NCBI GenBank assembly: GCA_005882775.1 | Contig: VBDY01000130.1 | Span: 1 to 37,479, forward strand | DNA from: Chloroflexota bacterium | Lineage (GTDB): Bacteria; Chloroflexota; Dormibacteria; CF-121 | Length of the DNA stretch: 37,479 bases | Direction of reading: 5' to 3' | Part shown: piece by piece, positions 2,666 through 36,244 of the stretch | How the letters are laid out: each line of letters starts with the position of its first letter | Numbering within the stretch: position 1 is the first letter of the stretch | The notes under the pieces: generated by a model | The model's database searches: none | The model's input: only the letters and a program-made list of their open reading frames with translations | Told to the model about the DNA's origin: nothing | Translations under genes and position numbers: made by a program

Positions 2666-3352
2666 ATGGGCACCCTTTACCTGGTGGCGACACCGATCGG
2701 CAACCTGGAGGACATCACGCTGCGAGCGGTGCACGTGCTGGAGTCGGTGCCGCTGGTGGCCGCCGAGGACACCCGGCACACGCAGAAGCTGCTCACCCAT
2801 TTCGGCCTGCGTACTCCGATGATCAGCCTGCACGCCCACAACGAGGGACGCCAGCTGGAGTCCATCCTGCAGCGCCTCGCCCGGCACGACATGGCGCTGG
2901 TCTCAGATGCCGGCACACCGGCACTCTCGGACCCGGGTGTCCGGCTGGTCAGCGCGGCGGTGGCAAAGGGATATCCGGTGGTTCCCATCCCCGGTCCCTC
3001 CGCCGTGCTGGCGGCGGTGGTCGCTTCCGGCCTGCCCACCAACCAGTTCACGTTCCTGGGCTTCTTGCCGCGCCGCAAGGGAGAGCTGGAGCGGCTCCTG
3101 CGCGAGGCCGGCGCCGAACGTCGCACCTTTGTCTTCTTCGAGTCGCCGCATAGAATCCAAAAGACAATGGCTATAATGGCTGCCACCCTCGGCCCCCGCT
3201 CGCTGGTGGTGGCGCGGGAGATCACCAAAGTCCACGAAGAATTTCTGCGTGGGACGCCGGCGACCCTCCTGGAGCATTTCGAGAAGGCTCCACCCCGTGG
3301 CGAGTTGACGGTCGTGGTTGCCGGCAGCGACTGGAGATCTCCGAATGGCTAA
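2666..3352 (+). CDS. rsmI: 16S rRNA (cytidine(1402)-2'-O)-methyltransferase
   Basis: MGTLYLVATPIGNLEDITLRAVHVL, AEDTRHTQKLL, SDAGTPALSDPG, FFESPHRI motifs. Confidence 0.95.
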   Translation: MGTLYLVATPIGNLEDITLRAVHVLESVPLVAAEDTRHTQKLLTHFGLRTPMISLHAHNEGRQLESILQRLARHDMALVSDAGTPALSDPGVRLVSAAVAKGYPVVPIPGPSAVLAAVVASGLPTNQFTFLGFLPRRKGELERLLREAGAERRTFVFFESPHRIQKTMAIMAATLGPRSLVVAREITKVHEEFLRGTPATLLEHFEKAPPRGELTVVVAGSDWRSPNG

Positions 3353-14074: not shown

Positions 14075-14099
14075 AGATAGCCCTGGGCTATCTTTTTTT
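14075..14099 (+). terminator. Attenuator-like intrinsic terminator in the infC leader
   Basis: AGATAGCC-CTG-GGCTATCT followed by a run of T (to 14099), located 8 nt upstream of the infC AGGAGG. Confidence 0.8.
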
Positions 14100-14121
14100 G
14101 TCAGTAGAGGAGGTTTGATCA

Positions 14122-14667
14122 ACGGCTTTTAGGGAACTCAGGATCAACGACCAGATTCGCGCCGCCGAAGTCCGTGTCATCGACGACCGTAACGAGCAAC
14201 TGGGTGTTCTCGCCATCGACCGCGCCAAGGCGCTCGCCGTCGAGCGCGAGATGGATCTGGTAGAAGTGGCCCCTCAGGCCCAGCCCCCGGTCTGCCGGAT
14301 CATGGACTACGGCAAATTCAAGTTCGAGAGTCTCAAGAAGGATAAGGATGGACGGCGCAAGCACAACGTCATCAAGGTCAAAGAGATGAAACTCCGCCCC
14401 AAGATCGGTGAGCACGACTTCCAGACGAAATTTCACGCGGTCAAGTCGTTCCTCGAGGAGGGCGATAAGGTCAAGCTCACCATCATGTTCCGCGGCCGGG
14501 AGATGGTCCACCAGGACATCGGCAAGAACCTGCTGGAGCGGATGGCGCGAGACCTCAAGGCCATCAGCACCGTGGAGCGCACCCCCCTGCTGGAAGGCCG
14601 GAACATGATCATGATTCTGGCGCCGGCAGGCACGGCCGCTGCCGCCGCGGCCGCCAAGGCGCCTTAA
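14122..14667 (+). CDS. infC: Translation initiation factor IF-3; start codon non-canonical (ACG 14122 proposed; ATC 14143 alternative)
   Basis: RINDQIRAAEVRVIDDRNEQLGVLAIDRAKALA...VCRIMDYGKFKFE; AGGAGG at 14108-14113. In-frame TGA at 14116-14118 and no ATG/GTG/TTG until 14251. Confidence 0.88.
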   Translation, partial: TAFRELRINDQIRAAEVRVIDDRNEQLGVLAIDRAKALAVEREMDLVEVAPQAQPPVCRIMDYGKFKFESLKKDKDGRRKHNVIKVKEMKLRPKIGEHDFQTKFHAVKSFLEEGDKVKLTIMFRGREMVHQDIGKNLLERMARDLKAISTVERTPLLEGRNMIMILAPAGTAAAAAAAKAP

Positions 14668-32813: not shown

Positions 32814-33920
32814 ATGTTGAAGCCGGACTTCATCAAGGCGCTCGACCAGGTCCAGGAGGAGAAGGGGATCTCCAAGCAATCCCTGCTCTCACTCGTGGAA
32901 AGCGCCCTGGCCACCGCCTATCGCCGCGCCTTCAACCCGCCCGACGCCATCCGGGTCCAGGTCGACCCGGGTACGGCCGAGATCGCCATCTTCGGCCGGC
33001 GCCGGGTGGTGGAGCAGGTGAGCGATCCGGGTACCGAGGTCTCCCTGGACGAGGCTAAGGCGGCGCGTCCAGGTGTTGAACCGGGCCAGGTGGTCGAGGT
33101 CCCCCTGCCCACCGATGATTTTGCCCGGCTGGCCGCGCAGATCAGCAAGCAGGTCGTCTTCCAGCGACTGCGCGACGCGGAAAAGGAGCAGGTGCTCCGG
33201 GATGTGCTCGAGCACAAGGGCGAGATGGTGAGCGGAGTGGTCGAGCGGATCGCCGACCACTCGGACGGCAAGACCGTCTACCTGGAGCTCGGCAAGGCGG
33301 AGGGCGTGCTTGCTCCCGAGGAGCAGATTCCCGACGAGGTGCTTCGTCCGGGACAGTACCTCAAGGTGCTGCTGCTGGACGAGCGCAAACGTGGCCGTGG
33401 AGCCCAGGTCAACGTCTCGCGCGCCCACAAGGCACTCGTGCGCCGCCTGCTCGAGTTCGAGATCCCCGAGCTCCAGTCGGGCGCCGTCATTATTCGGGCG
33501 CTGGCGCGCGAGCCGGGGGTGCGCAGCAAGGTGGCTGTCTCCGCGCACCAGGAGGGGATCGACCCGGTGGGCGCCTGCGTAGGACCCAAGGGTGTTCGGA
33601 TCCGCAGCGTCGTCGGAGAGCTCGGTACCGAGCGGGTGGACATCATTCCCTGGGCCGATGAGCCGGAGCGTCTGGTCGCGAACGCCCTCAGCCCGGCCCA
33701 GGTCAGCCGGGTGGAAATCGACCGCGAGTCCAGGACCGCGACCGCGCACGTCCCTGACAACCAGCTTTCACTGGCGATCGGGAAGGACGGCCAGAACGCC
33801 CGGCTCGCCGCCAAGCTGACCGGCTGGCGGATCGACATCAAGCCCGAACCTGCTGGCGCCGCGGAAGCGAACGCCTCCGCCGTGGCCGGCGCACCGCCGC
33901 CCGGAGATGCAGCTGGCTGA
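32814..33920 (+). CDS. nusA: Transcription termination/antitermination protein NusA
   Basis: S1 and KH domains: SRAHKALVRRLLEFEIPE, DPVGACVGPKGVRIRSVVGELGTERVDII, QLSLAIGKDGQNARLAAKLTGWRIDI. Confidence 0.97.
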   Translation: MLKPDFIKALDQVQEEKGISKQSLLSLVESALATAYRRAFNPPDAIRVQVDPGTAEIAIFGRRRVVEQVSDPGTEVSLDEAKAARPGVEPGQVVEVPLPTDDFARLAAQISKQVVFQRLRDAEKEQVLRDVLEHKGEMVSGVVERIADHSDGKTVYLELGKAEGVLAPEEQIPDEVLRPGQYLKVLLLDERKRGRGAQVNVSRAHKALVRRLLEFEIPELQSGAVIIRALAREPGVRSKVAVSAHQEGIDPVGACVGPKGVRIRSVVGELGTERVDIIPWADEPERLVANALSPAQVSRVEIDRESRTATAHVPDNQLSLAIGKDGQNARLAAKLTGWRIDIKPEPAGAAEANASAVAGAPPPGDAAG

Positions 33921-34185
33921 GCCCGAGCGGACCTGCGTCGGGTGCCGGCAGGTCAAGCCCAAGCGGGAGCTCGTCCGCGTGGTCGCCACCGAGACCGGGG
34001 CAGAGGCCGACTTGAGCGGCCGCCGGCCGGGGCGAGGAGCCTATCTCTGCCGGCAGGATGCCTGCTGGCGCGAGGCCGCCCGGCGTCGCAGCCTGGACCG
34101 TGCGTTACATCTGAAGCTGGACAGCAACGATTGGTCTCGGCTTCGGGCGGGAATACTTACAGAGCTCTCCTCGCAGGCAAGGTAG
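33907..34185 (+). CDS. ylxR: YlxR family RNA-binding protein
   Basis: RTCVGCRQVKPKRELVRVV...GRRPGRGAYLCRQDACWREA; located between nusA and infB. Confidence 0.9.
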   Translation: MQLAEPERTCVGCRQVKPKRELVRVVATETGAEADLSGRRPGRGAYLCRQDACWREAARRRSLDRALHLKLDSNDWSRLRAGILTELSSQAR

Positions 34186-34225
34186 CCTTATCATTGCCTG
34201 TTGAGTTGCAAAGGATGGAACTGAC

Positions 34226-36244
34226 ATAGCCACTACCACCACACGCGGCATCAAGGTCCAGCAGCTCGCGAGAGACCTCAACGTCGAGGCTCGCGACATC
34301 CTGGACTTCCTCCGACCGATGCGGCACGCCCCGCGCCATGCGATGGCGGTGCTCAGCTCGGACCAGGAGGCGGCCGTGCGCACCCAGTTCGCCCCCGGGG
34401 CGCAGCCTGCCGAGGCCAAGCCCACCGGCAACGAGGGCAAGGTCCAGCTCCCGCCCACCCTTTCGGTCAAGGAGCTGGCCGAGTACCTGAACGTGAAGAC
34501 CGTCGACATCATCAAAGAGCTGATGCGCAACGGCATCATGGCCAACATCAACCAGCAGATCGACTACGACACGGCCGCCATCGTGGCGGACACCTTCGGC
34601 GTGCAGGCGTCGCCCATGGCCATGGACGCCGCCATCGCCGAGGAGATCGTGGGGGAGGGGGAGGCCACCCAGGTCAAGCTCACCACCCGCTCCGAGCTCT
34701 TCAGCCTGGACGGTGAGGACCCGGCGACCCTCAAGCCGCGGCCCCCGGTGGTCACCGTGATGGGACACGTCGACCATGGCAAGACCTCGCTTCTGGACGC
34801 CATCCGGCAGACAAAGGTAGCGGCCGGCGAGGCCGGTGGGATCACGCAGAGCATCGGCGCTTATACGGTCGAGCAGAAGGACCGGGAAGGGAAGGACCGC
34901 CGGATCGTCTTCCTGGACACGCCCGGCCACGAGGCTTTCACCGCCATGCGGGCGCGCGGCGCCCAGGTCACCGACCTGGCTGTGCTCGTGGTCGCAGCCG
35001 ACGACGGCGTGATGCCACAGACCGTGGAGGCCATCTCCCACGCCAAAGCCGCCCAGGTGCCGATCGTGGTCGCCATCAACAAGATCGACAAGGAGGGGGC
35101 CAACCCCGACCGGGTCAAGCAAGGACTTTCAGAGCAGGGTTTGGTGCCGGAGGATTGGGGCGGCCAGACCGTCATGGTCCCGGTCTCAGCCAAGCAGAAG
35201 ACCGGACTCTCCGAGCTTCTCGAGATGATCCTGCTTGTCGCCGACATCCAGGACCTGAAGGCCAACCCGAACAAGCCGGCCGCCGGGACTGTGATCGATG
35301 CCCACCTGGAAAAGGGACGAGGCCCGGTCGCGACCATGCTCGTCCAGACCGGGACCCTGCGAGTGGGGGACAACATCGTGGTCGGGCATATCTTCGGGAA
35401 GGTGCGGGCCCTGCTCAACGATCAGGGCAAGAAGATGAAGGAAGCCGGCCCGGCCGCACCGGCGGTGGTCACCGGGCTTCCGGACGTGCCGACCGCCGGC
35501 GACGTCTTCCAGGTGGTGTCCAGCGAGAAGGTGGCGCGGACGATTGCCGGTCAGCGCGCCGAGCAGCGACGGGTGGCCGCCCTGGCGCAGACCCGGCGGA
35601 TCACACTCGCCGACCTGGCCTCGCAGGTCGAAAAGGGCGCCATCAAGGACCTCAACCTGGTCCTCAAGGCGGACAGCAACGGCTCGGCCGAGGCGCTCAA
35701 GGGATCGCTGCTCAAGATCCAGGACCCCAAGGTCCAGATCAAGATCGTCTTCGAAGGCGTCGGGCCGGTGACCGAGTCGGACATCCTGCTGGCCGCGGTT
35801 TCAAATGCGCTGGTGATCGCGTTCAACGTCAAACCCGACGCTGCCGCCCAGCGAGCTGCCGAGCGCGAGAAGGTCGATATCCGGCACTACGATGTCGTTT
35901 ACAACGTCACAAACGACATCGACAAGGCGATCAAGGGACTCTACGAACCCACCTTCGTCCAGGTGTGGGAAGGTCGTGCCGAGGTGCTTACCCCGATCAA
36001 GATTCCCAAGGTCGGAATCATCGCCGGGTCGCGAGTCCTGGAGGGGAAGATAACCAGCGGATCTATCGCCAAGCTCCTCCGCGGCAACGACCTGATCTTC
36101 GAGGGGCCGATCGGCGGCCTCAAGCGCTTCAAAGACGACGCCAAGGAAGTCGCCTCTGGATTCGAGTGCGGGATCCGGGTCGATGGGTACCAGGACTTCC
36201 AGCAGGGCGACGTGATCGAGGCGTACCAGGTCCGCCAGGCCTAG
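34226..36244 (+). CDS. infB: Translation initiation factor IF-2; start non-canonical (ATA 34226 proposed)
   Basis: VVTVMGHVDHGKTSLLDAIR, DTPGHEAFTAMRARG, VAINKIDK. Conserved IF2 N-terminal segment TRGIKVQQLARDLNVEARDILDFL lies upstream of first canonical ATG 34319; in-frame TGA at 34202. Confidence 0.93.
   Translation: MATTTTRGIKVQQLARDLNVEARDILDFLRPMRHAPRHAMAVLSSDQEAAVRTQFAPGAQPAEAKPTGNEGKVQLPPTLSVKELAEYLNVKTVDIIKELMRNGIMANINQQIDYDTAAIVADTFGVQASPMAMDAAIAEEIVGEGEATQVKLTTRSELFSLDGEDPATLKPRPPVVTVMGHVDHGKTSLLDAIRQTKVAAGEAGGITQSIGAYTVEQKDREGKDRRIVFLDTPGHEAFTAMRARGAQVTDLAVLVVAADDGVMPQTVEAISHAKAAQVPIVVAINKIDKEGANPDRVKQGLSEQGLVPEDWGGQTVMVPVSAKQKTGLSELLEMILLVADIQDLKANPNKPAAGTVIDAHLEKGRGPVATMLVQTGTLRVGDNIVVGHIFGKVRALLNDQGKKMKEAGPAAPAVVTGLPDVPTAGDVFQVVSSEKVARTIAGQRAEQRRVAALAQTRRITLADLASQVEKGAIKDLNLVLKADSNGSAEALKGSLLKIQDPKVQIKIVFEGVGPVTESDILLAAVSNALVIAFNVKPDAAAQRAAEREKVDIRHYDVVYNVTNDIDKAIKGLYEPTFVQVWEGRAEVLTPIKIPKVGIIAGSRVLEGKITSGSIAKLLRGNDLIFEGPIGGLKRFKDDAKEVASGFECGIRVDGYQDFQQGDVIEAYQVRQA

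Follow-up and report, generated by a model that had tools for sequence, protein, structure and literature searches.

We showed that infB, the gene for initiation factor IF2, lacks a canonical start codon at its N-terminus in a window of 37,479 nucleotides from a Chloroflexota bacterium of the class Dormibacteria, and that AUA or AUC occupies the same site in every relative of its family in which it could be read. The explanation that we find likely is initiation of infB at this near-cognate codon, which would place the gene, like infC, under proofreading by IF3. Taken alone, the assignment of the start site to AUA or AUC is very strongly suggested by the comparison of sequences; control of infB by IF3 is a reading towards which our analysis leans slightly. 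To our knowledge, a near-cognate start is required in very few bacterial genes, of which infC is the classic example: it starts at AUU in Escherichia coli, at ATC in Streptomyces and at AUA in Staphylococcus aureus, and is autoregulated by IF3. Near-cognate starts under IF3 control are thus already known as a kind, and what is new here is infB as a member. No report of a near-cognate infB start was found in the literature searched, whose scope left out most subscription journals.

The right end of the window carries the order rimP-nusA-ylxR-infB (all features described here are on the + strand). The ylxR gene (DUF448, Pfam YlxR) has an ATG start and spans 33907-34185. It is followed by infB, which runs from ATA 34226 to the TAG at 36242-36244, matches the Pfam domains GTP_EFTU, IF-2, IF2_N and EF-G_D2, and is 82-88% identical to its orthologues in the family; the order of its domains, its single copy and its position after nusA-ylxR are those of IF2. 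Upstream, the infB frame is bounded by a TGA (34202-34204), from which seven triplets (GTT GCA AAG GAT GGA ACT GAC) lead to the proposed AUA start at 34226-34228. The frame goes on with GCC ACT ACC ACC ACA CGC GGC ATC AAG, and the peptide after the ATA is IATTTTRGIKVQQLARDLNVEARDILDFL. Neither ATG, GTG nor TTG occurs before codon 32, the first canonical codon in frame being an ATG at 34319-34321, 31 codons past the ATA. This reading of the infB frame is exactly as the original prediction had described it. A Shine-Dalgarno sequence, AAAGGA (34210-34215), lies 10 nt 5' of the ATA. Just 3' of ylxR, TATCAT (34189-34194) could be the -10 element of a promoter for infB, and TATCATT is kept in most of the family; a scan for a consensus sigma-70 hexamer pair near the infB start found none. 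Folding of the RNA around the start gave nothing stable or unusual (z 0.29), and an Rfam scan of the window matched one tRNA and nothing else.

The family of the window (f1) comprises 18 genomes, and the 5' end of infB is readable in 15 of them. The codon at the start site is ATA in 13/15, throughout genera g1 and g4, and ATC in the two from g2 and g3 (L011, L013). From the in-frame stop to the conserved coding sequence none of the 15 has a canonical codon: ATG, GTG and TTG are absent in frame upstream of the ATA or ATC, and the next one comes 31-39 codons downstream. In one genome (G014) an in-frame TAG immediately precedes the ATA, and a start further upstream is therefore impossible there. 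The ATA genomes have AAGGA or GGAGG at 10-11 nt and the two ATC genomes AGGAG at 5 nt. The use of ATA at this site is itself informative. Among the 328 internal isoleucine codons of infB in eight members of the family, 308 are ATC, 19 are ATT and only one is ATA, yet ATA is found in 13/13 genomes of g1 and g4 at this one site, which indicates selection on the start codon and not on isoleucine.

The same pattern is found in two further families of the class. The aligned codon is ATC or ATA in 10/11 genomes of f2, the remaining one having GTC, and in 8/8 of f4, with GGAGG or AGGAG 7-8 nt ahead of it. Over f1, f2 and f4, then, ATA or ATC is kept in 33/34 genomes, with a Shine-Dalgarno at a spacing of 5-11 nt. 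The N-terminal sequences of f1 and f2/f4 share little beyond I-A-[TK]. Some genomes are ambiguous when taken singly: four of f4 have an in-frame ATG 11 codons 5' of the ATC, and several of f2 and f4 have a GTG 3 codons 3' of the site. In the genome with GTC (L079, G050) an ATG stands three codons later, too distant from the Shine-Dalgarno. Elsewhere in the phylum, all 39 infB loci compared, which represent 38 further families, had a canonical codon in frame, mostly with a Shine-Dalgarno ahead, and named infB genes from many other phyla had one available in 73/74 cases among the matches listed. In the exception (L158, around 3030-3045) the infB frame is closed just ahead of its conserved part, apparently by a frameshift or an assembly fault.

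The fourth family, f3, has ATG at the start of infB in all 15 genomes read. That it does with ATG means that the trait is not essential. In f3 (L016-L030) a conserved CATAAT precedes this ATG by 12-15 nt. Most genomes also have TTTCGAATT upstream, and most have no Shine-Dalgarno; the sequences suggest an mRNA that is nearly leaderless or has a very short leader. In the infB tree the four families form one supported group within Chloroflexota, f2 and f4 being sisters, but it leaves the branching among f1, f3 and f2+f4 unsettled. The weak start might have been gained once and lost in f3, or gained twice.

A second initiation-factor gene in the window shows the same anomaly, as the original prediction had also stated. 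The genes infC, rpmI, rplT, pheS and pheT are sited at about 14.1-18.7 kb, and infC (14122-14667; Pfam IF3_N and IF3_C) has no canonical start at its N-terminus. Its frame reads TGA TCA ACG GCT TTT AGG GAA, and the first ATG, at 14251, is already inside IF3_N. We propose that it starts at the ACG (14122-14124), which is two codons past the TGA and has a Shine-Dalgarno, AGGAGG (14108-14113), 8 nt 5' of it. The motif TGA-TCC/TCA-ACG-GCN-TTT, with ACG about 6-8 nt past GGAGG, is found in 17/17 genomes of f1, and the position aligned to the ACG is occupied by ATC or ATA in families f2, f3 and f4. The infC of the class fits the known near-cognate rule, the ACG of f1 being unusual. A start at the out-of-frame ATC or TTG just 5' of the ACG was also considered; it would require a +1 shift, and the TTG is CTG or ATG in L043 and L044. 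A plain ACG start is preferred because it is more economical and because the distance to the Shine-Dalgarno is the same as for the ATC of the sister families. Directly 5' of the infC Shine-Dalgarno, the window has a terminator-like hairpin (14076-14099), GATAGCCCTGGGCTATC followed by seven T, with no Rfam match; it is possibly an attenuator.

Other translation genes were also inspected. The gene for S15, rpsO, starts at CTG after GGAGG throughout f1 (L287-L298, of which L296 is at about 7.2 kb of G000:C76), where its frame is often closed by a stop a few codons 5'; it starts at TTG, GTG or ATG in the sister families. The infA gene (L244-L259) encodes a basic N-terminal extension and has a TTG start soon after a TAATAT-like element, GGGTAATATGG; its mRNA is probably leaderless. 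A crude screen took in some 80 orthologues on shared contigs, among which infB, infC and rpsO were the sole clear cases after inspection by hand, an MPG glycosylase being doubtful. The screen for genes without canonical starts is noisy, owing to antisense and overlapping frames, and should not be taken for a genome-wide count.

How might such a start work? In most of the class the Shine-Dalgarno would select the near-cognate codon, AUA here and AUC in other genera. The spacing of 10-11 nt in the ATA genomes is rather long, which counts against this. Decoding would rely on the ordinary CAU initiator tRNA, reading AUA or AUC with a mismatch at the third position, as suggested by the finding of a tRNA-Met(CAU) with the initiator-type GGG/CCC anticodon stem. 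IF3 would then lower initiation at these codons as it does at infC, and the supply of IF2 would follow free IF3, going up when IF3 is scarce; IF2 synthesis would be low, would depend on the Shine-Dalgarno and would respond to free IF3. With so weak a codon, infB translation would also vary steeply with the delivery of initiator tRNA by IF2 itself. The known infC feedback loop would in this way be extended to a second initiation factor.

Several known systems resemble this one. IF3 destabilises 30S complexes on non-canonical starts, which is the basis of infC feedback (PMC5472188). Like infC, infB is an essential initiation-factor gene with a near-cognate AUH codon and a strong Shine-Dalgarno conserved over a large clade; unlike in infC, control by IF3 would be cross-regulation instead of autoregulation. 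The sigR gene of Streptomyces has a non-canonical start (GTC) kept across a clade, and its repression by IF3 was demonstrated experimentally (PMC5472188), but it encodes a sigma factor and not a part of the translation machinery. The ccpN (AUA) and cvfC1 (AUU) genes of S. aureus and Bacillus subtilis have conserved near-cognate codons after strong Shine-Dalgarno sequences and were missed by annotation; yet their functions are other ones, and the Shine-Dalgarno sequences of S. aureus are extended and start-proximal whereas those seen here are ordinary (PMC13009471). LepA, for which an AUU start was suggested (PMC1780047), is also a translational GTPase that needs a near-cognate start for its full length, but it is non-essential and its cases are isolated, whereas here a whole class is affected. 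A further gene with a near-cognate start of this kind, under IF3 control or of low efficiency, is pcnB, cited in PMC1780047 and PMC9410913.

A fixed weak codon may also hold IF2 low without feedback. AUA and AUC would then act as a constitutive dampener outside any IF3 circuit, an alternative that we hold to be unlikely but deserving of attention. In S. aureus, AUA and AUU starts give about 10% of the expression of AUG, and the effect of the medium was modest or nil in two of three genes (PMC13009471). The good Shine-Dalgarno sequences found here are also what compensation for such a codon would predict. Yet in E. coli and Streptomyces discrimination by IF3 extends to codons of this kind in general (PMC5472188), and some sensitivity to IF3 should be expected anyway; moreover, infC in the same genomes shares the near-cognate start. 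The original prediction of a start-codon stringency common to infB and infC stands as far as initiation at ATA 34226 is concerned, since conservation backs it strongly, whereas the regulation of infB by IF3 is something that we infer.

Initiation at an internal canonical codon, either ATG 34319 or the ATG at 34343, would produce an IF2 without its first 31-39 residues. The second of these, at codon 39-40 (HAMAVL), is kept across f1, and enterobacterial IF2 isoforms do arise at internal in-frame starts (PMC1780047). But the 30 codons downstream of the ATA evolve as protein-coding sequence. Third positions are variable in 25/30 of them, against 7 and 5 for the first and second positions, while in the seven triplets upstream of the ATA variability is spread evenly over the codon positions (5, 4 and 5 of 7). 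Substitution of the coding type thus begins at the ATA/ATC codon. Furthermore, no Shine-Dalgarno is seen ahead of 34343, a conserved one precedes the ATA, and the codon at 34319 is CAG, CAA, ACG, GGC or TAT in most relatives. ATG 34319 is not conserved and probably internal; it fails as a general start, and an internal start at either codon appears very improbable to us.

The original prediction had also considered a mini-ORF of five codons, ATG GAA CTG ACA TAG (34215-34229), which could feed the infB frame through re-initiation or a -1 shift. It is real in the window, and a TTG (34206) read in its frame is present in several relatives, as is the ATAG overlap. Its ATG is confined to the window, however, relatives having GGATAG, GGAAAG or GGTTAG there. 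The overlap with the stop is lost where the codon is ATC (L011, L013 and most of f2 and f4), so this cannot be the shared mechanism. Neither a slippery run nor a conserved overlapping ORF with a shift or stop-start overlap was seen, and we give this route hardly any credence. Sequencing or assembly error, which might be feared in a fragmented assembly of 234 contigs, has practically no chance of accounting for the infB start: independent assemblies from four genera have ATA or ATC at this site (15/15 in f1), and the comparison of infB 5' regions that had been proposed as a check revealed no relative in f1 with an ordinary ATG at the position of 34226.

If infB does start at AUA or AUC under IF3 proofreading, one may ask whether it is part of something larger. 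We tentatively raise, with more doubt than conviction, a class-wide circuit of initiation fidelity, in which infB (AUA/AUC), infC (AUC/AUA, or ACG in f1) and rpsO (CUG in f1) would use codons rejected by IF3, and translation genes would be co-regulated by the ratio of free IF3 to IF2. IF2 stimulates the translation of leaderless mRNAs, and high levels of IF3 inhibit it (PMC9031893); the near-leaderless AUG of infB in f3 would represent this other IF3-inhibited, IF2-stimulated mode. One might speculate that f3 kept the same sensitivity to IF3 by these other means.

These starts have consequences for the annotation of a large group of environmental bacteria, in which standard gene callers shorten IF2 (by about 31-39 residues in f1), IF3 and S15. 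Should IF2 be controlled in the way that IF3 is, the two factors setting the rate and the fidelity of initiation would be tied together at a single physical step, and the model built on infC could be tested on a second essential gene.
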